The position numbers were made by a program, and so were the translations under genes. DNA of 36,377 nucleotides from an uncultured Clostridia bacterium (GTDB taxonomy: Bacteria > Bacillota > Clostridia > TANB77 > CAG-508): NCBI GenBank assembly GCA_944392515.1, contig CALXWV010000011.1:1-36377 (forward strand), written 5' to 3'. Numbering within the stretch: position 1 is the stretch's first letter; each line of letters opens with the position of its first letter. Below are positions 7,985 through 34,686 of the stretch, in pieces. Below the pieces are notes generated by a model that ran no database searches, was not told the DNA's origin, and worked only from the letters and a program-made list of their open reading frames with translations.

Positions 7985-9588
7985 CAATTTTTATTACTTA
8001 TATAAAGTTTTTTATTAATTTTATTTATTATATCTTTAATCCATTGTATATTTTCTTTAACTCCTATACTTGCTATTGGAATTAATATTATTACATAAGG
8101 TAAAACATATCTTGATTTACCTTCCCAAAATAATTGAAAAGCAAAACCTCCTAAAAATATGAGTATTAGTAATATTTGCTCATTAGACAAATCTTTATTT
8201 CTAAAAATAAATATACAAACCAATGTATAGATTATAATTAAAATTATTTTCTCAAATATTATAAAAAAATTATAATTATCTAGTAAAAAATTATTCAAAT
8301 CTTTATACGTTAAAATTTCTTTATTTGTTATATTTTCTAAGTTTAAATCCATAAATCCCGTATTAAGCCAAATACATTCAAAAGTCGGTTCCACCCACAT
8401 AGATAATATTTTATTTTTAAAAAAATTTAAACCTTCTTTTGGATTATGTATATATTCACTAAAAAAATTTATAGCTCTTTGTTTCAATACTTCATTATTA
8501 TGTCCATTTTCTTTCCACTCATCTATGTATTCATCAACATACCATCCTGGTCCTCTATATCCTTCGTTAGATATACCATGATTAATGTGTCCTATTGTAG
8601 GAAATTTTTCACTTGCATCTAATTGTAATGTTACTTCCATATAACCTTTTACTATACTTGTAGGTATTATACTAATACAAATAAATAAAAAAATTAACAC
8701 TATTTTAAACAAAGTCTTTAAAAATTTACTTTTTCTTGTATAATCAATATTTTCTTTTATAAAGCTAATAAATTTTATACAATCTAAACATAAATATATA
8801 ACTAATGCTATAAAAAATATTAACATATTCATTCTGCAAAAATATGACAAGCTCATGAGTATAGCTGATATAAATAAATATCGCACTTTTCGTAATTTGC
8901 TATATTTAATTATAAAATAAATAGAATATATTGAAAATGCTAATCCTAATAAATCACCATATACAAATGTTGAAATCATTGATAGTGGAATAAATGCTAA
9001 GGATAAACAAATTACGGTAAAAGTATTTAATGTATTTTTCTTATCACTAATTAATTTAGCTATAAGATATAATCCTATTATTGTAAAAGTATTAGCAATA
9101 GCATTAATATACTGTAAAATCACAACATTTGTAGTTCCACATACTTTAAAAATTATAGAATAAAATATAATTAAAGTAGTTTGGTGAGGATACATTTGTA
9201 AATATTCATTCTTTATTAATTTATCAATATTTCCATTTGCAATTAGTTTTGCATCATTATATACTTCATATTGGTCATAAATTGGATATGACCTTCTTAC
9301 ATTTATCCATATTATTTGTCCTATAAGATAAAATATTAGTAATATGCTAAAAAATATAATTTTATTTTTTTTACTTATTTTTATATCATTAATTTTATCC
9401 ATTAGTAATAAAATCGTAAAAAATATAGTTATCAGTAATAATATAACAAATATATTGTTTTTAGAAAATTCTAGATACTCTCCATACCATATTTTTGCAT
9501 TATCGCAGTATATTAATATTACTAATATAAAAATACAAATCAATCCTATAATTTTAATTATCTTGTTTATTACTCTATTAACTTTCAT
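7966..9588 (-). CDS. GT-C type polytopic glycosyltransferase (family 39-like)
   Basis: 540 residues with about twelve hydrophobic segments and a Lys-rich tail. After two membrane segments and a third at about 78-96 comes an outer loop reading Y-P-I-Y-D-Q-Y-E-V-Y-N-D-A. This fits the acidic first-loop motif of PMT/ArnT-like GT-C enzymes, which use lipid-phosphate sugars as donors; the following MYPHQTT is also typical. A second outer region at about 330-400 is rich in Gly, Trp and Asp. Likely role: transfer of a sugar from a polyprenyl-phosphate carrier to the exported polymer, using donors made by the GtrB-like enzymes just upstream. The ribosome site is weak (GGAG 13 bases from the ATG). Substrate unknown. 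Confidence 0.7.
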   Translation of the reverse strand: MKVNRVINKIIKIIGLICIFILVILIYCDNAKIWYGEYLEFSKNNIFVILLLITIFFTILLLMDKINDIKISKKNKIIFFSILLIFYLIGQIIWINVRRSYPIYDQYEVYNDAKLIANGNIDKLIKNEYLQMYPHQTTLIIFYSIIFKVCGTTNVVILQYINAIANTFTIIGLYLIAKLISDKKNTLNTFTVICLSLAFIPLSMISTFVYGDLLGLAFSIYSIYFIIKYSKLRKVRYLFISAILMSLSYFCRMNMLIFFIALVIYLCLDCIKFISFIKENIDYTRKSKFLKTLFKIVLIFLFICISIIPTSIVKGYMEVTLQLDASEKFPTIGHINHGISNEGYRGPGWYVDEYIDEWKENGHNNEVLKQRAINFFSEYIHNPKEGLNFFKNKILSMWVEPTFECIWLNTGFMDLNLENITNKEILTYKDLNNFLLDNYNFFIIFEKIILIIIYTLVCIFIFRNKDLSNEQILLILIFLGGFAFQLFWEGKSRYVLPYVIILIPIASIGVKENIQWIKDIINKINKKLYISNKNCCKMKK

Positions 9589-9633
9589 TTTTCTTATGCT
9601 TCTCCATTTAAATTACATTTTTTATTACATATA

Positions 9634-10578
9634 TTAATCGTTAGTTTCCTTTTCTCCGTTGTATTCATTTACTAAATAAAGTGGTCTATTTTTTGATGCA
9701 TTAAATATTCTTCCTAAATACTCTCCTATTATGCCAAAAAGTAAAATTTGTACACCTGAGAAGAATAATACAAGTAGAATAATTGCTTGATATGCTTGAA
9801 TAGCTATGCTTAATTTAATGCATTTTACTATTACATATATAAAGTAAACAAATAAAGCTAAAAAGGTTGGTATTGCAATATATGTTGATATTCTAAGAGG
9901 TGATGTTGTAAATGAAGTTATTCCATCTATTGCAAGGTCAATTAATTTTTTGTAATTCCATTTTGTTTTTCCAGCAACTCTTGCATCTCTATCATACAAT
10001 ATAGCTTTCTTTTTATAACCAATCCAGCTAAACATTGATTTAGAATTTCTATCTGTTTCTCTAAGTTTTTTTAATGCATTTACACATCTTCTATCTAGAA
10101 GTCTAAAATCTCCTGTATCTTTTTGAATTGGAACTGATGTAAGCATTTGAAGTACTCTATAATACATTTTAGATGTGAACTTTTTTAAAAAACTTTCGCC
10201 TGCTCTTGTTTTTCTTTGAGCATATACATCATCATATCCTTCTTCCCAATATTTAATCATTTCAGGAATTAGCTCAGGTGGATCTTGCAAATCTGCATCC
10301 ATAAATATAACTGCATCACCCTTAGCATAATCTAGTCCTGCAATCATAGCTGTTTCTTTTCCAAAGTTTCTTGAAAAATCCACATAAGATATTCTATTAT
10401 CTTTTTCTCTGTATTCTTTTATTAAATTAATAGTATTATCTTTTGAGCCATCATTCACAAATAATATTTCAAATTCATAATTTTCTATACTATTAATTAA
10501 TTTTTCTAATCTCTCATATAAATATGGAAGAGATTCTTCTTCATTATATGCCGGTACAATTATTGTTATTTTTTTCAT
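9634..10578 (-). CDS. GtrB-like family 2 glycosyltransferase (polyprenyl-phosphate sugar synthase), copy 2
   Basis: 314 residues: a GT-A catalytic domain (about 1-230) followed by two C-terminal membrane helices (about 232-255 and 268-292). Motifs are IIVPAYNEEESL at the N-terminus, FVNDGSKDNT, the DxD-bearing MDADLQDPPE, and QKDTGDFRL. These are typical of GtrB/YfdH-type enzymes, which load Glc or a similar sugar onto undecaprenyl phosphate. It is a tandem paralogue of 10615-11553, sharing FSRNFG, MDADLQDPPELIP and KDTGDFRL. The leader is unusual: AAGGAG lies 28 bases before the ATG with a 6-bp hairpin between them, and no closer ribosome site or in-frame upstream start exists. A lipid-linked sugar made here could feed a GtrII-like or GT-C protein nearby. 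Confidence 0.88.
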   Translation of the reverse strand: MKKITIIVPAYNEEESLPYLYERLEKLINSIENYEFEILFVNDGSKDNTINLIKEYREKDNRISYVDFSRNFGKETAMIAGLDYAKGDAVIFMDADLQDPPELIPEMIKYWEEGYDDVYAQRKTRAGESFLKKFTSKMYYRVLQMLTSVPIQKDTGDFRLLDRRCVNALKKLRETDRNSKSMFSWIGYKKKAILYDRDARVAGKTKWNYKKLIDLAIDGITSFTTSPLRISTYIAIPTFLALFVYFIYVIVKCIKLSIAIQAYQAIILLVLFFSGVQILLFGIIGEYLGRIFNASKNRPLYLVNEYNGEKETND

Positions 10579-10588
10579 TACTTTTATA

Positions 10589-10603
10589 TCGTATTATATA
10601 CGA
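10589..10603 (-). promoter_or_regulatory. hairpin between ribosome binding site and start codon
   Basis: On the minus strand the message reads AAGGAG (10612-10607), AAT, TCGTAT-ATA-ATACGA, ten more bases, then ATG (10578). The 6-bp stem with a 3-base loop lies exactly between the ribosome site and the start codon. Removing the hairpin shortens a 28-base spacing to about 13. The same design occurs before the gene starting at 25160. Confidence 0.5.
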
Positions 10604-10614
10604 ATTCTCCTTTC

Positions 10615-11553
10615 TTAATTATTTATATTAATTGTCTTATCAATTATATACTCTGGCCTTTGCTTTGTTTCATCATATATCCTAGCTATATATTCTCCTA
10701 TCATCCAAAGAGATAATAATATAATACCTCCTAAAAATGTCATTGTACACATTATTGATGTCCACCCAGGAGTTAAACTATTCCATTTATATGTAAATGA
10801 AAGAATTGCATATATTAAAATTGCTATTGAAATTAAAACTGAAATAATTCCTAAGCCTCCTACAATTTTTAATGGTTTTGTAGAAAATCCTAAAATGCCA
10901 TCCTTTGCCAATTTAAGCATCTTTTTTAATGGGTATTTTGTTTTACCTGCAAATCTCTCTTTTCTTTCATATTCATAAGCATATTGTTTAAATCCAACCC
11001 AACTAAATAATCCTCTTAAAAATTTATTATGTTCTGGTAATGAATTTATAACATCTACAACTTTTTTATCTACTAATCTAAAGTCCCCTGTATCTTTTGG
11101 TATTTCAACATCTGATAATTTATTTAATGTCTCGTAAAAAACTTTTGCTGTAAGTAATTTAAAAGCTGATTCACCCTCTCTCTTTTTTCTTTTTCCATAT
11201 ATTACTTCATATCCATTTTTCCAATACTCAAGCATATCTGGTATTAATTCAGGTGGATCTTGTAAATCTGCATCCATTATAATAATAGCATCACCACTTA
11301 CATATTTTAGTCCAGCTGTTACTGCTGCTTGATGTCCAAAATTTCTAGAAAAAGATATTATTTTAACATTATCATCTGTCTTAGCTAAATTTTCTAAAAT
11401 TTCTAATGTTTTATCTTTGCTTCCATCATTTATAAAAATGATTTCATAATTATAGTCATTTAAATCTTTTAAAACTTTAGTTACTCTTTTATAACATTCT
11501 TCTGCTACTTGTTCTTCATAATACATTGGTATAACTAACGATATTTTTTTCAT
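10615..11553 (-). CDS. GtrB-like family 2 glycosyltransferase (polyprenyl-phosphate sugar synthase), copy 1
   Basis: 312 residues with a GT-A domain and two C-terminal membrane helices (about 230-252 and 264-288). Motifs: LVIPMYYEEQVAEE, FINDGSKDKT, IMDADLQDPPE with the catalytic DxD, PKDTGDFRLVDK, and the short post-helix tail ARIYDETKQRPEY typical of DPM1/GtrB-like enzymes. The probable role is transfer of a sugar from a nucleotide donor to undecaprenyl phosphate on the inner membrane face. GGGG lies about 7 bases before the ATG and overlaps the region after the upstream TAG, so translation may be coupled. Its tandem paralogue follows directly. Two such synthases suggest two different carrier-linked sugars. 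Confidence 0.9.
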   Translation of the reverse strand: MKKISLVIPMYYEEQVAEECYKRVTKVLKDLNDYNYEIIFINDGSKDKTLEILENLAKTDDNVKIISFSRNFGHQAAVTAGLKYVSGDAIIIMDADLQDPPELIPDMLEYWKNGYEVIYGKRKKREGESAFKLLTAKVFYETLNKLSDVEIPKDTGDFRLVDKKVVDVINSLPEHNKFLRGLFSWVGFKQYAYEYERKERFAGKTKYPLKKMLKLAKDGILGFSTKPLKIVGGLGIISVLISIAILIYAILSFTYKWNSLTPGWTSIMCTMTFLGGIILLSLWMIGEYIARIYDETKQRPEYIIDKTININN

Positions 11554-11563
11554 ATATTATCCC

Positions 11564-12517
11564 CTATTTAATTCCATCTTTTTGTAATTTATTATTTTTC
11601 CTATCTTCAAATTCATTAAGCTTTATTTCAAATTCTTGTTTTGATTTATTTATAAGTGTCTGCAATATCAATCCTCCAAAGAATGATTGAACCATACACA
11701 TATAAAAGAATACACTTGCTACAAATGATGGCATTTTAGGAACTAAGCCACTATTTACATAGTCTATAAGTACTGGTATTAAAAATACTGTTCCTATAAT
11801 AGCACATATAATTGAGATCCATAAGAAAAATGAAAGAGGTCTATAATTTTTATATAATGTAATAATTGTTTTAATTACTCTTGCACCATCTGCATAGGTA
11901 TTTAACTTTGAAAAACTTTCTTCTGGTCTATCTCTATATTCAATTATTACATTTTCCCAATTTAAATTTTTGTCTAACACATGTATTGTCATTTCAGTTT
12001 CAACTTCAAAACCTTTTGACAATACAGGAAAAGTTTTTACAAATCTATAACTAAAAGCTCTATAACCTGTCATTACATCTTTTATTTTACTTTTGTAAAT
12101 CATATTAATTAAAGCCCTTACTATGACATTTCCAATATTATGAAAAGGTCTTTTATTTTCTTTAAAATATGTTGAAGATAGCCTATCGCCTATTACCATA
12201 TCTACATTATTGTTTAATACTAAATCACACATTTTTCTTGAATCTTCTGCTGGATAAGTATCATCTCCATCTGTTATAATATAGCACTCAGCATCTATTT
12301 CTCTAAACATTGTTCTAATAACATTGCCTTTGCCTTGTTTTCTTTCATATCTAACTATTGCTCCAGCTTTTCTTGCAATTTCATCTGTGCCATCTTTTGA
12401 ATTATTATCATATACATAAATTGTAGCTTCTGGCAATTCTCTTTTGAAATCATTAATTACCTTTTCAATCGTTTTTGCTTCGTTATAGCAAGGTATTAAA
12501 ACAGCTATCTTATCCAT
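11564..12517 (-). CDS. membrane-anchored family 2 glycosyltransferase (DPM1-like)
   Basis: 317 residues. The GT-A domain starts AVLIPCYNEAKTIEKV, with YDNNSKDGT and an ITDGDDTYP motif giving the DxD-type metal site; the Q-G-K-G-N-V-I-R segment is typical of dolichyl/polyprenyl-phosphate sugar synthases. Two hydrophobic helices (about 226-250 and 264-288) anchor the C-terminus. It diverges from the two GtrB-like copies downstream, with shorter, DPM1-type signatures, so it may use another sugar. GGAGG is immediately upstream of the ATG. It sits between a GtrII-like gene (18 bases upstream) and the GtrB-like pair (10 bases downstream), inside the likely polymer-decoration module. Confidence 0.87.
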   Translation of the reverse strand: MDKIAVLIPCYNEAKTIEKVINDFKRELPEATIYVYDNNSKDGTDEIARKAGAIVRYERKQGKGNVIRTMFREIDAECYIITDGDDTYPAEDSRKMCDLVLNNNVDMVIGDRLSSTYFKENKRPFHNIGNVIVRALINMIYKSKIKDVMTGYRAFSYRFVKTFPVLSKGFEVETEMTIHVLDKNLNWENVIIEYRDRPEESFSKLNTYADGARVIKTIITLYKNYRPLSFFLWISIICAIIGTVFLIPVLIDYVNSGLVPKMPSFVASVFFYMCMVQSFFGGLILQTLINKSKQEFEIKLNEFEDRKNNKLQKDGIK

Positions 12518-26491: not shown

Positions 26492-27784
26492 CTATTCAAT
26501 AATCTCGTATGCTGTTTGGGCAGTTTTTCCATCTCCTGTACCCAATCTAGCGTTAGAATTTATTGTAACTACAGGAAATAATGGTAGACTGTCACTGCTA
26601 CTAAGTGAGCCCGAATCTAACATATAACCTATTCTCGTCCCCACCTCTCCATTATATATTGTTGTAATAATAAAATGACAGTAATCATAGAATGTATCTA
26701 CAGATCGTGAGCTCATCCAATATAATGTACTAGTTCCATTTGGAAGAAATATATCATAGTAATTTATTCCATTTTCTAATTTTTTAAATGCCGTTTGTAA
26801 AAATGCATTACTTGCATACCAAAATGTCTGATATGGCTGTATACTTGTATTGGCCATAATATACCCAGTTGAATTTGTTGCTCCTTTATCATTTCGCCCT
26901 ATTAGTCCATTTTGTTCACTTAATCCAAGACCACTTTCCTTTTTATTTCCATTTATTACACTAAGTTTTTCTTCTGTATAAATACTTGGATAATTTTTCC
27001 AGTTTGGGTATGCATTTCCTGTTTGATTTCCATATTTTGTTCCATTATATACATTATTATTTGCTTCTTCTAATGCTGCTTCAGTCATCTTTGCTCTTAG
27101 ATCTTCTACTTTTATACTTCTTGCTTCTATGTTTTTACTGCTATCACCATATAGATTACTACATGCTTCATCTAGTAATTGTACCCCATTATTATATCCT
27201 TGAGCTTCTCCTAAGTACACTGTTCCCTTTGTTGGTTCTGTTGGAACCATTTCTACTTTTCCATTTTCTTCATCAATTGATAATATTCTCCACTTCTCAA
27301 TCTTGTAATTTGCATCTGAACTGTTTAATATTACATCATCAGTTTTAGGTGTTTTTACTGTTGAACAATATTCAGCTTGCCATGTATATGTCCCACTTGG
27401 CACATATTCTATATAATCTCCTATTTGGCACATACCTAATGTTCTATAAGTTCCGGTTATTTTCTTTCCATCTACATATGCTGTTTTTCCATATATTATA
27501 TCTTCGGGAGTTGCAGTTGCATCTGATGTATCTAATATGTGCAATGTTCCTGTTACACCTGCTAAAGTTATTCCTTCCTTTATATACTCTGGTAATAGAT
27601 TTCCATTACTCGAACTACCATTTGAAGAATTATATTTTTTATTTGCTAAATTTACTCTTATAGCGTTCATCCCTAATACTAATCCAATTATTACTATTAT
27701 CGTAATTATTGATATTAGTATAATTAACTTTTGTTTCTTAGTTATAGTTTTCATTTTATACTTTATCCTTTCTAAATTATTCAT
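26492..27784 (-). CDS. membrane-anchored surface protein with fibre-like motifs and possible variable domain
   Basis: 430 residues. A single membrane anchor (about 19-39) follows a basic N-terminus, then a Ser/Asn/Gly linker (50-62). Two short motifs, I-K-E-G-I-T-L-A-G-V-T-G-T (68-80) and D-I-I-Y-G-K-T-A-Y-V-D-G-K-K-I-T-G-T (95-112), resemble segments common in phage tail fibres. The C-terminal part (about 344-413), with Y-W-M-S-S-R, N-G-E-V-G-T-R and F-P-V-V-T-I-N-S-N, resembles a repeated clostridial surface-domain type whose YW-x-x-SR to PVV stretch varies strongly between proteins. Parts of it (around 26600-26720) use G/C-rich codons such as CGA, GGG and ACG, unlike the neighbours. M11 (27754), with AAAGGA 11 bases upstream, is an alternative start. 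It has its own promoter and terminator. Function unknown; adhesion or receptor binding is inferred. Confidence 0.75.
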   Translation of the reverse strand: MNNLERIKYKMKTITKKQKLIILISIITIIVIIGLVLGMNAIRVNLANKKYNSSNGSSSNGNLLPEYIKEGITLAGVTGTLHILDTSDATATPEDIIYGKTAYVDGKKITGTYRTLGMCQIGDYIEYVPSGTYTWQAEYCSTVKTPKTDDVILNSSDANYKIEKWRILSIDEENGKVEMVPTEPTKGTVYLGEAQGYNNGVQLLDEACSNLYGDSSKNIEARSIKVEDLRAKMTEAALEEANNNVYNGTKYGNQTGNAYPNWKNYPSIYTEEKLSVINGNKKESGLGLSEQNGLIGRNDKGATNSTGYIMANTSIQPYQTFWYASNAFLQTAFKKLENGINYYDIFLPNGTSTLYWMSSRSVDTFYDYCHFIITTIYNGEVGTRIGYMLDSGSLSSSDSLPLFPVVTINSNARLGTGDGKTAQTAYEIIE

Positions 27785-28219: not shown

Positions 28220-28243
28220 AAAAAAGACAGTATTCTTACCGCC
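28220..28243 (-). terminator. intrinsic terminator after cpsB
   Basis: Minus strand: GGCGGTA-AGAA-TACTGTC (28243-28226), a 7-bp stem with two G-U pairs and an AGAA tetraloop, followed directly by TTTTTTC. It lies 4 bases after the cpsB stop codon and has a relatively G/C-rich stem for this window, so it likely ends the dockerin-cohesin-cpsCDB transcript. Confidence 0.8.
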
Positions 28244-28247
28244 TTCT

Positions 28248-29003
28248 TTATCTTCTTTTTCCCTTAATCCTCTTTGGCATTTCAATTTCAAATTCTTCAT
28301 TATTTAATATACATCTTGGATTAAGTTCACTTAATTCATATAATTTATCTCTTCCTATTCTTTTTCTAAACTCTTTTTTAATTTCATCCATTCTAGTATA
28401 TATACTACCAGCTCTATGGTTATCTGTACCTAAAAAATGAACAGCATTTGCATCTAAAAGTTTATATAATGTTTCTTTAGCTGTATTACCATATCTTCCA
28501 ATGATACTTGCATAATTACATTGAAGTAGAGCACCTGCTTCTATCCAATCGATTGCAATACCAGGATCATCTTGAATTAATTCATATCTTTCTGGATGAG
28601 CTATTACTGGTATTAAATTCATTTTTGTCAACTTTAAGATTACTTCATCTGTGTACATTACCTTTGCTCTTAATGGTAATTCAAATAGTACATATCTACT
28701 TTCACCTAATGTAGGTACAACTCCTTCTTTTATTAAATCTGGTAAATCATTAGATATATATCCTTCTGCACCAATATGAATATTAATATTTAGCCCTTCA
28801 TCATTAACTTTTTGCATTATAGCATCTATTATATATTTTCTGTCAGTCTTATTAAACTCATATTCACCTTCAATATAATGAGATGTAGCAAAAATATCAG
28901 TAAAGCCTGCATCGCAGGCTTCATTAAGTATTCTAAAGGTTTCTACAATATCTTTTGCTCCATCATCTACACTTGGTAATATGTGTGAATGAGTATCTAT
29001 CAT
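28248..29003 (-). CDS. cpsB: PHP-domain protein tyrosine phosphatase (CpsB/CapC/YwqE)
   Basis: 251 residues, the normal size. PHP metal-binding motifs are intact: D-T-H-S-H-I-L-P-S-V-D-D-G-A-K-D at the N-terminus, F-A-T-S-H-Y near 40, AHPERY (about 136-141) and G-T-D-N-H-R near the C-terminal third. This manganese-dependent phosphatase removes phosphate from the tyrosine cluster of CpsD, cycling the kinase that controls capsule or exopolysaccharide export. AAAGGA precedes the ATG by about 10 bases, and cpsD ends 26 bases upstream. It is the last gene of its transcript, with the terminator right after it. Confidence 0.94.
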   Translation of the reverse strand: MIDTHSHILPSVDDGAKDIVETFRILNEACDAGFTDIFATSHYIEGEYEFNKTDRKYIIDAIMQKVNDEGLNINIHIGAEGYISNDLPDLIKEGVVPTLGESRYVLFELPLRAKVMYTDEVILKLTKMNLIPVIAHPERYELIQDDPGIAIDWIEAGALLQCNYASIIGRYGNTAKETLYKLLDANAVHFLGTDNHRAGSIYTRMDEIKKEFRKRIGRDKLYELSELNPRCILNNEEFEIEMPKRIKGKRR

Positions 29004-29029: not shown

Positions 29030-30022
29030 TTAATCTTTATATTTTTTTATACTATCTAATATTTCTTTTGCTTTATCTGATGGTACTTCAACTTTAGATT
29101 TAAATTTTGTACTCCTTATTTCATCTTGTATTTGTCTTTGAGTATCTTTAATCTTCTCATTTATATATTCATCAACCTTAGTATCTTGTTTTTTTATGCC
29201 ATGAATCTCTTCTTTGCTATTTTTTTCAAATACATTCTTTATTTTTTCATCATTTTCAGAATCGTTATCTTCATAATTTCTATTTGTTTTTCTTACTCTT
29301 CTTTCTGTTTGTAATGAAGGCGTATTCGATGTACTAGCATAGTAATATTTTTCTTCATATTTTTTATTAGATATTTCAACTCTATTTAATACTACTCCTG
29401 CTATATTTCCACCAACTCTTTTTATACGCTTCTTAGCTTCTTTTAAGTCATCTATTTTTGTATATTTATAACTTGTAACTAAAATTGTACTATCTACTAA
29501 TCTAGAAATAATTGTAGAATCAGTTACTAATAAACAAGGAGCACCATCAAAAATTACAACATCAAAATTCTTAGTAACCTCATCAATAAGTTCAATAATC
29601 TTATCTGACATTAATAGTTCTGATGGATTAGGTGGTATATTTCCAGAAGGTAACAAATATAAATTTTCTACTTCTGTTTGTTTTACACAATTCATACCAT
29701 CTATTTTTTGTCTTCTACCTAAATCATTTATTTCAGATAAATAGTTAGAAAGACCAGGCACATTATTCATTTGAAATATTTTATGTTGTCTTGGTTTTCT
29801 CATATCTGCATCAATAATTAATGTTTTGCTTCCTGATTGTGCAAATGCAGTTGCTAAATTAGCAGAAATCCAGCTTTTACCTTCAGCTTGTACAGTACTA
29901 GTAGTAAGTATTGTTTGGCAATCTGATGCTTTATTCATAAATTGAATATTAGTTCTTAAAGCTCTAAAAACTTCTGATATAGGAGACTTAGGATCTGATT
30001 GAGTTATTATTTCTTTTCTCAT
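29030..30022 (-). CDS. cpsD: bacterial tyrosine kinase of polysaccharide export (CpsD/CapB) with C-terminal extension
   Basis: 330 residues, about 100 longer than usual. The P-loop kinase domain has S-E-V-F-R-A-L-R-T-N near 16-25, Walker A TVQAEGKSW (43-51) and Walker A' LIIDADMRKP (68-77). Walker B reads VVIFDGAP (155-162), where the family normally has D-T-P-P. An autophosphorylation cluster Y222, Y226, Y227, Y228 follows the kinase fold. After it, residues 230-330 are charged and rich in Lys, Glu and Asp, possibly helical, which is not typical of the family. Its ATG overlaps the cpsC stop (TAATG), showing tight coupling to its membrane activator. It probably acts at the membrane to control chain length or export. 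Confidence 0.92.
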   Translation of the reverse strand: MRKEIITQSDPKSPISEVFRALRTNIQFMNKASDCQTILTTSTVQAEGKSWISANLATAFAQSGSKTLIIDADMRKPRQHKIFQMNNVPGLSNYLSEINDLGRRQKIDGMNCVKQTEVENLYLLPSGNIPPNPSELLMSDKIIELIDEVTKNFDVVIFDGAPCLLVTDSTIISRLVDSTILVTSYKYTKIDDLKEAKKRIKRVGGNIAGVVLNRVEISNKKYEEKYYYASTSNTPSLQTERRVRKTNRNYEDNDSENDEKIKNVFEKNSKEEIHGIKKQDTKVDEYINEKIKDTQRQIQDEIRSTKFKSKVEVPSDKAKEILDSIKKYKD

Positions 30023-30720
30023 TATTTTTTCCTCCCTCTGCCAAATTCATAAATTGGTATTTCAGCAATAACATTTATACCAATTGCTTTTTCAATATCA
30101 CTACTACTTTTTACTGTGTTATCTAAAAGATTAGCTAAAACAACATATATTACAGACAAAACAATACCTCCAGCTAAAAATAATAATATATCTTTAACAT
30201 GATTTATATTACTTGGTTCTGTTGGAACTTTTGCATCATCTAAAGGTTTAATATTTTGCATATCATATAGTTCTGCTACTCTATCTGTAAATACTTTTCT
30301 TATTTCATTAGCAATTTTAGCTGCAAGACTTGGATCATCATTTTCAACAGATATTTGAATAATCTGTGTGTTTGTAGCAGATGCTACTGTTATTTGGCTT
30401 TTTAATGCTTCAGCAGAAATATTTAAGCCTAAGTTAGAAATAACTGTACTTACAACTGAATCGCTTGTAGCTATTCCTCTATAAGTAGATAAAAGCGAAT
30501 TATTTAATGTGACTTCACTTTGAGTAACTGCAGTTTGTCCTTCTTCAGTTTCAGTATTACTTGTAAGTATTGCTGTTGAAGTTGCAGTGTACATAGGATT
30601 TACAAAATATGTAGTATAAACATATCCTAGAGCAATACAAACAAGTAAAATAATTAGAATTGCTATTTTTCTTTCTAAAAACATGTGTATTACGTTTTTT
30701 AAATCAATCTCTTCTTCCAT
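30022..30720 (-). CDS. cpsC: Wzz/CpsC-type polysaccharide co-polymerase and kinase activator
   Basis: 232 residues with membrane helices at about 19-40 and 177-199 flanking an outer region, the Wzz layout. N-terminal I-D-L-K-N-V-I-H-M-F-L-E-R and the P-x2-P-x-x-P-like segment before the second helix (A-K-V-P-T-E-P-S-N) are family marks. The cytoplasmic tail ends G-R-G-R-K-K, which should contact and activate CpsD, as in split Gram-positive tyrosine kinases. The stop codon overlaps the cpsD start. The cohesin gene ends 28 bases upstream. Role: setting polymer length and switching the kinase. Confidence 0.93.
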   Translation of the reverse strand: MEEEIDLKNVIHMFLERKIAILIILLVCIALGYVYTTYFVNPMYTATSTAILTSNTETEEGQTAVTQSEVTLNNSLLSTYRGIATSDSVVSTVISNLGLNISAEALKSQITVASATNTQIIQISVENDDPSLAAKIANEIRKVFTDRVAELYDMQNIKPLDDAKVPTEPSNINHVKDILLFLAGGIVLSVIYVVLANLLDNTVKSSSDIEKAIGINVIAEIPIYEFGRGRKK

Positions 30721-30748: not shown

Positions 30749-31588
30749 TTAATCATAAAATTTTTTATATCTAATAAATGCAATAATTGAAACAATAATT
30801 ATTATAGCTATAACTCCAACTATTGTATAATTAAATCCTGTTTGTGGTATAGGATCTTTTGCAACTGTTAGATCATCTACTTTTTCTATAGTATTTCCTT
30901 TAATTTCATTTTTTGTTCCACTTTGTTCATTGTTGTTTTTATCATCGTTTTGATTGTTACTTTGATTATTGTTTACATTTTCATCTTGTTTGTTATCTTC
31001 ATCTTCTGTAGGTTCATTATTTACATTGTTGTTATTGCCTTCATTTTCATCTTCTCCAGGCTTTTGTGTGTTATCTTCTTCATTGTTATTAACTTTTACT
31101 GTAACTTTAGCAGTCAAATTCATATTTTCAATATTTACATTTTCATTATCTTCAGAATCTGTTCCATTAGTTAATGCAAAAGAAGTTACTTTAATATCTG
31201 TACTAAAAGAAGCTTTGCTATCTTTAATAGTTAATGTGATTTTTGCTATATCTGTATTATCTTTAACACTAGCTGTATCTAATAAAATTTTTCCTGATTG
31301 ATTAATGCTTGCAGACCAACCATTTAGTCCTTCAATACTTACATTACTAAATATTGTTTTATCATATTCTAAGTTTCCTTCTGCTGCCATTGGCCATGTT
31401 GTTTCTACATTATTAAAATCTTTTAGACTTAAAGTAACATACACTTTTTGATCTGTAATAGCTTTAGATGCATCAGGCGTTATCTTTACTGTTAAAGAAC
31501 CATTAGCCGCTTTAACTGCTGAAGCTATTGAAATAATTAACATTAATATAATTGTGCTTACAATAAATTTTAAATTTACTTTTTTCAT
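30749..31588 (-). CDS. membrane-anchored cohesin-domain surface protein
   Basis: 279 residues. A signal peptide (1-27, cleavage likely after A-V-K-A) is followed by a cohesin-like domain (about 30-166): V-Y-V-T-L-S-L-K-D-F near 49-58, N-L-E-Y-D at 72-76 and a final strand near K-V-T-V-K. A long Asn/Asp/Glu-rich spacer (167-244), a sortase-like I-P-Q-T-G (247-251), a hydrophobic helix (253-272) and a basic tail R-Y-K-K follow. The protein is thus held at the cell surface with its cohesin displayed on a flexible stalk. AAAGGAG lies 7 bases before the ATG. The upstream gene, 12 bases away, encodes a dockerin, its obvious partner, and cpsC follows. Binding is inferred from family knowledge. Confidence 0.85.
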   Translation of the reverse strand: MKKVNLKFIVSTIILMLIISIASAVKAANGSLTVKITPDASKAITDQKVYVTLSLKDFNNVETTWPMAAEGNLEYDKTIFSNVSIEGLNGWSASINQSGKILLDTASVKDNTDIAKITLTIKDSKASFSTDIKVTSFALTNGTDSEDNENVNIENMNLTAKVTVKVNNNEEDNTQKPGEDENEGNNNNVNNEPTEDEDNKQDENVNNNQSNNQNDDKNNNEQSGTKNEIKGNTIEKVDDLTVAKDPIPQTGFNYTIVGVIAIIIIVSIIAFIRYKKFYD

Positions 31589-31600
31589 CTGCTTTCTCCT

Positions 31601-34264
31601 TTAGTTTAATATTATTTTCCTCATTCCAACTAAATCTTTTATATCTAAGTTATCATCTTGATTCGTATCTGCTGCCATCTCTTCAATAGTATCATATTTT
31701 GTATAATCTAACAAGCATTTTCTAAGACTTACTAAATCTCTTATTCCACAATTACCATCCTTGTCTACATCTCCACTTACTATTAAGGTATATTCTTTGT
31801 TATCATATTTCAAAATATCCCCAGTTGAAATTATGTCTTTACTTAAATCTAATTCTTCTCCATTATGTAAAATTGTATAATTATTCAAATTAAGCTCATC
31901 TTTTAATGTATTTGCTAAGGTATTATTTGAAATATTACTAATATATCCATCTTCTATTGTGTAATCCTTATTAATATTTGCAATAGTAACTTCTACTGAA
32001 AATTGTACTCCTTTAATATCTAATTCAAATGTAAACTTACCATTTTCGTAAAATGTATGTTTATTGCTTCCTTCATTATTAGTAATCTTAGTACTATCTC
32101 CAGTAATTAATGTTACAGTAATATTTTCATTTGTAGGTTCATAAATATCTCTATCAAATTCAACTTGTATCTTTCCTTTTTCTTCTGCTACAAAATCATT
32201 TATTTTACTGTCTATAATACTATTTACAATGTTAGTTATATATATAATTCTATTTTTATTTAATACGTTTTCATAAACATTATCTGTAGTTATGCTGTTA
32301 TTATATAAATCTCTTATTTTAATAATTATATTCTCTAAAGATCCTATATCCAAATCCAAATTGTTATTGTATTTGTCTATTGTGTTATTTAAATCATTTT
32401 TTACTGTATCTAATTCAATACTATCTTCAGTAATATAATAAGAATAAATTTCTTTATATTTATCTGCTATATTATCTAATTTTTCTATCAATTCTAATAA
32501 TATGTTTTCCTCAATGCTTATGCTATTATTGTTATATTCATTTACTATTGTGCTGATAAAATTATATAAACATTCATAGCTATATGATACACTATCTTGA
32601 GATACTGTGTCAACATTTTCACTTAATTTGCTAATAGCATTTTTAAGCTCAGTATATGATGCATTAATTGTACTATTTTCTAACAAATTATTATATTCCT
32701 CTTCATTCATAATCTCATCAATAGATGAAGTTGTATCTTGTACCCAATGGTTATTTCTATATTTAATATCAAAGTTATCATAATATGCTTTTATTTCATC
32801 ATAATCATTTGAATTTAATATTTCTTCATTTGATATTTCTTCTATTTCTGAGTCTGATAGGTTATAAAAGCTTGAATTAGTATCTATTCCAAATTCATCA
32901 AGTTTTGTAATATCATTATAACTTTTATCTGAAATATATGTCATAGTATTTTCGTTATTATAATAAATATTGTCGTCTGAATTTAATAATGATTTATATG
33001 TTTCTATAGGAACTGTAGGATATTTATAGTATAATGCTCTACTATTATATAATCTATTATTTCTATATGTTAATCCATTTTCTTCATTTACAATTTGCCA
33101 TATAACTAAATCTGCTGGTTGCCATTTATCATCTCTTGATTCAAATCCCCAACCTTTTCCTTGATTAATTACAATGTTATTTTCTACTTTTGTATCACTA
33201 AAATGAATATTATCATATGTATAATTATTATGGCAGAAAAATTCAAAAGCGTATGTGCAATTTATAAATATATTATTTTCGCAATAATTATTATAAAACC
33301 CGTCTGATACACTATTACCTTGACAAGTATATCCTGCATCATAAACATTTCTTATAATACAATTTTGAACCAATGTATTTTTTGATTGATGCCAAAATTC
33401 AATACCATTTCCATATCTTCCTCCATTAGACGTATATGATCCACCTATATTTTGAATTACACAATTCATAATACAGACATTTTCTATAGGATGTTGTTTT
33501 TTAGAAATTCCATGTACTCCTGTATTTTCTATTATAATTCCATCTAATATCATATTTGAAGAAACATTTACAAGTCTATTTTGAAATGTAATTGCTATTT
33601 TTCCAAGTATATCACTAGGATTTGAATCGCATTTTAAATATAAATATCTATCTTCACAATAGAAATCAAAATTATCTTTTAGTAATTCTTTATTTTTCTT
33701 TCTATTTCCATGAATTTCTCCATGCTCATCTATAAAAGATCCTACATTATATTCACCTTTTAGTTCATTTGAAATTCCAATAAAATCCTTTTTGCTTGAC
33801 ATATCTAATTTATATAAACCATCTTCATATATCCAAGCATTTGTATTGCTTAATACTGCTGCTCCACTTATTCTAGGCTTTTCTAAACTTTCGTCTCCAT
33901 AACTTCCAACGTAAAATAAATTATTTTCATTCGCATCAACTTCGAAATTTAGCAATCCATAAAATGTATCTCCTCTTTTTAAAAGTACTTTATCCCCACC
34001 ATAGTATTTTTTACCATTTGCTATTTCAAAAGACATTGGATTATTTATATCTGTACCATCTATTGAAGTTCCGTCTTGCGACACATAATATGTAATACCG
34101 GTTGATGTATTTTGAGCTTTTATGCACTCTGTTTCTCTAATTAATTCTTTTATATCTTTATTTTTTATGATTATCCCTTCATCTTTCATTCCTATTGCAT
34201 ATAACAAAATGAATAAGATTAAAAATATAATCAATATTTTAAGCCATTTTCTTTTAGGTAACAT
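31601..34264 (-). CDS. secreted right-handed beta-helix protein with C-terminal dockerin
   Basis: 887 residues. An N-terminal hydrophobic segment (8-25) acts as signal or anchor. Residues about 55-460 look like a right-handed parallel beta-helix (K-R-G-D-T-F-Y-G-L, then many N-N-I/N-C-I rungs), the fold of polysaccharide lyases and related enzymes. An all-helical region (about 510-695), an Ig-like domain (about 700-765) and a small linker domain (768-830) follow. The type I dockerin (831-887) has two calcium loops with D832-D834-D836-D843 and D866-N868-D870-D877. GGAGG precedes the ATG. It is 12 bases ahead of the cohesin gene, so the protein is likely displayed by that cohesin. Catalytic residues and substrate are not evident; it may trim or bind the locus polysaccharide or a foreign glycan. 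Confidence 0.88.
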   Translation of the reverse strand: MLPKRKWLKILIIFLILFILLYAIGMKDEGIIIKNKDIKELIRETECIKAQNTSTGITYYVSQDGTSIDGTDINNPMSFEIANGKKYYGGDKVLLKRGDTFYGLLNFEVDANENNLFYVGSYGDESLEKPRISGAAVLSNTNAWIYEDGLYKLDMSSKKDFIGISNELKGEYNVGSFIDEHGEIHGNRKKNKELLKDNFDFYCEDRYLYLKCDSNPSDILGKIAITFQNRLVNVSSNMILDGIIIENTGVHGISKKQHPIENVCIMNCVIQNIGGSYTSNGGRYGNGIEFWHQSKNTLVQNCIIRNVYDAGYTCQGNSVSDGFYNNYCENNIFINCTYAFEFFCHNNYTYDNIHFSDTKVENNIVINQGKGWGFESRDDKWQPADLVIWQIVNEENGLTYRNNRLYNSRALYYKYPTVPIETYKSLLNSDDNIYYNNENTMTYISDKSYNDITKLDEFGIDTNSSFYNLSDSEIEEISNEEILNSNDYDEIKAYYDNFDIKYRNNHWVQDTTSSIDEIMNEEEYNNLLENSTINASYTELKNAISKLSENVDTVSQDSVSYSYECLYNFISTIVNEYNNNSISIEENILLELIEKLDNIADKYKEIYSYYITEDSIELDTVKNDLNNTIDKYNNNLDLDIGSLENIIIKIRDLYNNSITTDNVYENVLNKNRIIYITNIVNSIIDSKINDFVAEEKGKIQVEFDRDIYEPTNENITVTLITGDSTKITNNEGSNKHTFYENGKFTFELDIKGVQFSVEVTIANINKDYTIEDGYISNISNNTLANTLKDELNLNNYTILHNGEELDLSKDIISTGDILKYDNKEYTLIVSGDVDKDGNCGIRDLVSLRKCLLDYTKYDTIEEMAADTNQDDNLDIKDLVGMRKIILN

Positions 34265-34407
34265 TTTTCCTCCATTTTTTACATTATTGATTATATTTTA
34301 ACATTTTAATATTTAATTTTGGTTACAAAGCGATTAATTTTTTGTAATATTAAAAAATTTTTATTTATTTAAAAAAAGTAATAATATAAATATAATTTAA
34401 TATGTAT

Positions 34408-34425
34408 ATGCAATTTTCATTGCAT
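34408..34425 (-). repeat. small hairpin with GAAA tetraloop
   Basis: On the minus strand ATGCAAT-GAAA-ATTGCAT gives a 7-bp stem closed by a stable GAAA tetraloop. It lies about 140 bases before the dockerin gene start. A T-rich stretch follows only about 27 bases later, so terminator function is doubtful; it could be a leader RNA structure. Confidence 0.4.
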
Positions 34426-34648
34426 TATATTCTAATTTTTTTATTTTTTTATACCTACTCCAATGCATTCGAAAATTTTCAATAATCCAGTATATTTCTA
34501 ATATTGAAATTTACTTGAAATTATTATGATATATATATATATCAAATACAACTTCCGTTTTTTTTCAATTTTATTTTCTGTATATTAAATTACACTTTTT
34601 TTCATATTCTTTAACATACATAATATCATTAATATATTCCTTTATAAT

Positions 34649-34668
34649 CTCTAATCAAACTCTAATCA
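34649..34668. repeat. tandem 9-base direct repeat with 11-base period
   Basis: On the minus strand TGATTAGAG occurs twice, 34668-34660 and 34657-34649, separated by two bases. An 11-base period, about one helical turn, is typical of response-regulator binding sites. It lies just after the stop of the GT2 gene and about 385 bases before the dockerin gene. Confidence 0.4.
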
Positions 34669-34686
34669 CTTTTTTCAATAATATCC

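Follow-up and report, generated by a model that had tools for sequence, protein, structure and literature searches.

A cohesin-dockerin pair stands directly ahead of the capsule regulatory genes in the window, by which we mean the whole 36,377-nucleotide stretch of DNA analyzed here, from an uncultured Clostridia bacterium. Cohesin-dockerin joints are known mainly from plant-fiber degradation; the one described here is linked to genes that control the coat of the cell itself. Most likely, the pair acts as a plug and socket that fastens a sugar-polymer-processing protein to the wall beside the coat-making machinery. With a probability of about 0.58, we read the pair as a socket, anchored to the wall, into which different proteins processing the cell's own surface polymer can be plugged. 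The open-access papers searched described no cohesin-dockerin pair linked to capsule regulators.

The pair and the capsule regulators lie in one tight gene run

According to the list of open reading frames, the dockerin protein, the cohesin protein, cpsC, cpsD, and cpsB form a tight run, all on the minus strand. The dockerin-tailed beta-helix protein (887 aa, 31601..34264) was delineated from its open reading frame, domain searches, and a structural model and has homologues at loci L047, L048, and L158, and the single-cohesin anchor protein (279 aa, 30749..31588) was recognized from its open reading frame, a profile, a model, and structural matches. All three CpsBCD capsule regulators follow in the order C-D-B, each matching its own family, namely, the Wzz-type chain-length protein CpsC (30022..30720; PF02706, 51 bits; TIGR01006), the tyrosine autokinase CpsD (29030..30022; TIGR01007, over the cut-off), and the CpsB/CapC phosphatase CpsB (28248..29003; PF19567, 177 bits). 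In contrast to the usual CpsBCD arrangement, these genes are preceded by a dockerin-cohesin pair.

The 12 bases that the original prediction had counted between the dockerin and cohesin genes proved exact (31589..31600, minus strand), and this gap contains a ribosome-binding site, AGGAG (coding strand, AGGAGAAAGCAG). Gene order and a terminator scan also agreed with its claim that the pair directly precedes cpsC-cpsD-cpsB with no terminator in between: the scan reported no terminator-like site between the five genes, one further match inside cpsB, and a terminator-like hairpin directly after cpsB (28220..28249, minus strand). A 422-base gap without any open reading frame of at least 80 aa precedes the unit (34265..34686, minus strand) and is presumed to hold the promoter region; in a promoter scan, promoter-like sites were no more frequent than in shuffled sequence. 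Judging from their spacing, the five genes probably constitute one unit and would share an operon. Next after cpsB lies a gene for a 430-aa protein (26492-27784) that has a hydrophobic segment at its N-terminus and matches no Pfam family.

A single cohesin with a sortase-type tail

Taken alone, the window cohesin scored 20.5 bits against PF00963, under the curated cut-off of 24.1, with no match listed by hmmscan, and searches of Pfam, NCBIfam, and PDB with it as a single sequence gave nothing useful; a family profile was needed. In a PDB search, such a profile (A1), made from an alignment of 49 relatives, matched solved cohesins best (1g1k, E = 1.6e-10; also 2vn5, 3ul4, and 1aoh). The AlphaFold2 model (pLDDT 90) has the jelly-roll fold of cohesins, and both Foldseek and VIA-align placed Clostridium perfringens cohesins as its top structural matches (Z 12.6). 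Structure prediction thereby bears out the cohesin that had been proposed for residues 30-166, which we delimit to residues 33-166 (31091..31492, minus strand). In the C. perfringens glycosidases concerned (NagJ and the GH33 sialidase), the cohesin forms one module within a large enzyme, whereas in the window it belongs to a stand-alone anchor protein.

The same protein had been described as a membrane-anchored cohesin protein, a wording in which the cohesin stands and the anchor is incomplete. Its C-terminus (residues 247-279; 30752..30850, minus strand) carries the motif IPQTG followed by a hydrophobic stretch and the basic tail RYKKFYD, although hmmscan found no match to Pfam Gram_pos_anchor in it. 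Given this LPxTG-like tail, the similar ends of most homologues, and five sortases over the cut-off in the window's genome, the cohesin protein is probably anchored to the wall by sortase and not merely bound to the membrane. It resembles the sortase-anchored scaffoldins of Ruminococcus (nonSLH-anchoring, LPxTG; PMC11557425), in which one cohesin and a C-terminal sortase-type signal likewise serve to receive a dockerin protein. Unlike in that system, no multi-enzyme scaffoldin was found here, the genes are those of a capsule operon, and the cargo is not a plant-wall enzyme.

The dockerin protein carries a candidate glycan-active beta-helix

The dockerin protein begins with a hydrophobic segment (34190..34252, minus strand) that appears in the model as part of a long helix (residues 5-50) and may be either a signal peptide or an uncleaved signal anchor. 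Examined by eye, the beta-helix and PslG-like cargos discussed below (window, L047, L048, and L137) look more like uncleaved signal anchors, and leucine-rich cargos (L059 and L064) have a cleavable signal peptide. A beta-helix domain (residues about 55-470; 32855..34102, minus strand) is followed by a stalk (residues 471-700; 32165..32854, minus strand) that is helical in the model and common to PslG-like cargos (blastp with L049, L053, and L074); structure searches, which barely probed the stalk, listed no matches for it. An Ig-like domain and a small module (residues 701-824; 31793..32164, minus strand), modeled as strands and common to other capsule-linked cargos, precede the C-terminal type I dockerin (residues 825-887; 31604..31792, minus strand).

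The dockerin is poorly modeled (pLDDT <50 for residues 831-887), and we therefore identify it from its sequence. Each of its two calcium loops is complete (DVDKDGNCGIRD and DTNQDDNLDIKD), and PF00404 scored 20.3 bits by hmmscan and 26.5 bits in the genome search, against a cut-off of 22.9; the dockerins of homologues at capsule loci reached 26-47 bits. A dockerin family profile also retrieved PDB dockerins (6kg9, E = 4e-5, and others). The pair is therefore what it had been taken for, with the cohesin identified by profile and fold and the dockerin by its calcium loops and PDB matches.

Compared with PDB structures, the model of residues about 55-470 is a right-handed beta-helix that matched lyases and glycosidases at Z 20-26. 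Most of its beta-helix matches were polysaccharide lyases or glycosidases, among them the Vibrio lyase RbmB, whose substrate is that organism's own polysaccharide. The sole PDB relative detectable by sequence was GH136 lacto-N-biosidase (E = 6.2e-9), which shares the beta-helix fold. This match is confined to the N-terminal cap and stops short of the catalytic aspartates (D568 and D575 in ErLnb136; PMC7335108), and we do not claim GH136 membership. We consider the window beta-helix a candidate glycan-active domain; E289, D309, and E341 are conserved acidic residues in it.

Different cargos occupy the same slot

Homologous positions at other capsule loci hold different cargos. A beta-helix is found in the window, L047, L048, and L158, and a PslG-like domain is found at L053, L074, L137, and L182, as well as in a neighboring open reading frame at L049. 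At this last locus (L049:7000-10381), the PslG-like and stalk-dockerin parts lie in two overlapping open reading frames, reflecting either a split gene or an assembly frameshift. The PslG-like profile (A4) finds PslG itself (E = 1.5e-20), and both catalytic glutamates of PslG (E165 and E276, numbered as in PMC6813494) align with invariant glutamates of the profile in the four aligned cargos. A third class consists of leucine-rich-repeat proteins without a known enzyme domain (L054, L055, L059, and L064). Blastp showed that the stalk and dockerin modules are common to different cargo classes. Because the cargo varies, the beta-helix cannot be regarded as the conserved element of the system. The proposal that the cargo is glycan-active and sits close to the polymer of the cell itself gained evidence from the PslG-like hydrolases in the slot and from the exchange at the beta-helix boundary described below.

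The leucine-rich-repeat cargos would also suit a docked protein that is a binder and not an enzyme, retaining the capsule on the wall or serving as an adhesin or matrix protein, and the beta-helix fold does occur in non-enzymes, including adhesins (for example, PfbA, Z 19.9). We regard such a binder as rather unlikely, because PslG-like cargos with both catalytic glutamates occupy the slot at four or more loci and because lyases or glycosidases make up most of the beta-helix matches.

Related domains with anchors of their own were found in genus g11. In genome G044, the protein that bears the beta-helix has an IPYTG signal of its own. In G171, a PslG-like domain is joined to beta-helix repeats, and the C-terminus has a hydrophobic segment but no clear LPxTG motif; both proteins adjoin Wzx, Wzy, and glycosyltransferase genes. 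Since these homologues have their own C-terminal anchors, they support the idea that the dockerin-cohesin joint replaces a direct anchor. Their location in polysaccharide synthesis loci, together with capsule genes and not catabolic or uptake genes as the neighbors in the window, also makes it improbable that the enzyme targets foreign glycans (mucin or milk oligosaccharides, for instance), with the capsule linkage setting only the timing of its surface display. That reading would draw on GH136 lacto-N-biosidase as the only PDB relative detectable by sequence and on the relatives being animal-gut-type metagenome-assembled genomes by their record titles.

A sharp step in DNA identity marks the end of the beta-helix

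A codon-aligned comparison with locus L047 of genome G161 located a junction at 32855..32884 (minus strand), where DNA identity rises from about 64% to about 95%. Identity between the window and G161 is 64% in the beta-helix, 95% in the remainder of the gene (residue about 471 onward), 91% in the cohesin gene, and 90% across cpsC, cpsD, and cpsB, compared with 84-86% for the housekeeping genes polA and ruvB; the flanking DNA on either side of the unit shows no similarity between the two. Fourfold-degenerate sites are 37% identical before the step and 85% identical after it, the step falling at the end of the beta-helix. As silent sites step too, relaxed selection on the protein alone fails to explain the change, and recombination at the domain boundary is the simplest reading. 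From this one species pair, we infer that the beta-helix domain moves with the polymer type. The mosaic gene also suggests how coats may switch type while the processing enzyme stays in place. A more specific version, in which a capsule-specific cohesin subfamily is a universal wall socket and a polymer-matched enzyme domain is swapped at the stalk junction when recombination changes the capsule type, leaving socket and regulators functional with the new polymer, is plausible but somewhat less likely than not.

A proposed route to the cell surface

In the favored socket mechanism, the dockerin that ends the beta-helix protein would bind the cohesin with calcium, and the beta-helix domain would thereby be held at the cell surface, its production coordinated with the CpsBCD phospho-regulatory system. 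There, it may cleave, trim, or release the cell's own capsule polymer as this leaves the cell, as PslG does for Psl. The joint would permit exchange of the glycan domain when the polymer, as we suppose, changes, with stalk, dockerin, cohesin, and regulators kept constant. The nearest precedent for this mechanism is PslG, a membrane-working glycosidase of a Pseudomonas aeruginosa exopolysaccharide operon, which works from the inner membrane, depends for its location on the Wzz-type protein PslE, and interacts with PslE in two-hybrid assays (PMC6813494). Both systems co-encode a polysaccharide-active protein, in our case a candidate one, with polymer synthesis; they differ in that the window encodes a beta-helix cargo, which would be held by a dockerin-cohesin joint instead of an inner-membrane association and by a Gram-positive-type anchor. 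For PslG, the question of why operons for polymer synthesis also encode enzymes that cut the polymer has been raised before (PMC9075953). The joint offers a clean handle, since breaking it would detach the enzyme from the wall without removing the enzyme.

Capsule-linked cohesins form one clade in at least seven genera

The family searched comprised 195 genomes from 39 genera of uncultured Clostridia, gut-type metagenome-assembled genomes by their record titles. CpsB is present in 95 of these genomes. Among 71 directly read cps loci, 13, from seven genera, have a cohesin gene upstream of cpsC, either adjacent or no more than three genes away; this count is a lower bound, as contig ends cut some loci and unread loci were judged by a single-sequence cohesin search only. 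L158 and L182 add further capsule-linked cohesins beyond the 13. In a scan of named genomes, 1 of 80 CpsD loci had the pair (L182), and the other 79 had no cohesin. Given that 58 of the 71 loci read also have no cohesin, the pair is dispensable. In addition to L047, G161 has a second cps locus without a cohesin (L162).

A tree of 58 cohesins placed 14 capsule-linked sequences and one orphan (L063) on one side of a branch with support of 95/92. The capsule-linked cohesins are thus one clade, spread over at least seven genera, and have kept their place at about 25-30% sequence identity. On the CpsC-CpsD tree, the cohesin-linkage label needs six changes, pointing to a patchy presence with losses or transfers. 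Recurring in seven or more genera, the linkage is beyond chance, and the dockerin-cohesin-cps adjacency expected in relatives was found there as cohesin-cps linkage. Pairs of like layout are common in the family, most of them away from capsule loci, and this abundance, together with the many cps loci lacking a pair, could mean that one of several dockerin-anchor pairs came to lie beside cpsC incidentally. We consider this very improbable in view of the separate clade and its retained position.

The cps loci of many relatives include a sortase gene some 0.9-1.2 kb upstream of cpsC; two of these loci, L053 and L182, also have a dockerin and a cohesin. Independently of cohesins, sortase and capsule genes are linked with one gene between them at L092, L098, L104, L106, L108, L110, and L131, and also at L132, L143, L145, L166, L168, and L169.

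Dockerin-cohesin pairs are common across the family

A single-sequence search detected a cohesin relative in 101 of the 195 genomes and 29 of the 39 genera. Among the single-cohesin genes whose upstream neighbor could be read (46), 32 lie directly downstream of a dockerin gene on the same strand, at a median gap of 44 bases. Cohesin and dockerin distances are correlated (r = 0.75), weakly so between distant pairs (r = 0.21). We rejected this correlation as proof of binding, since linked genes are inherited together and linkage alone would yield such congruence.

The profile search of the window's genome found two cohesin proteins, as well as four dockerin proteins that score above the cut-off, and a truncated dockerin end adjoins the second cohesin. 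PF00404 half-matches on contig C10 were set aside, as they sit in very long leucine-rich proteins. Both cohesin proteins carry a single cohesin, and no multi-cohesin scaffoldin of the kind that defines a cellulosome was found in this genome, which is about 77% complete. Contigs C21 and C24 of the same genome encode three dockerin-tailed wall hydrolases, one an amidase and two hydrolase-like (L014:2241-6010 and 8157-11909; L015:6753-9568), each directly followed by a membrane protein that has cadherin-like domains and may be another type of dockerin receptor. These cadherin-like anchors were not detectably cohesins in single-sequence searches, which makes this a weak negative. Elsewhere in the family, loci L075, L078, L079, and L080 hold runs of cohesin, dockerin, cohesin-plus-dockerin adaptor, dockerin, and cohesin genes, which amount to small scaffold chains.
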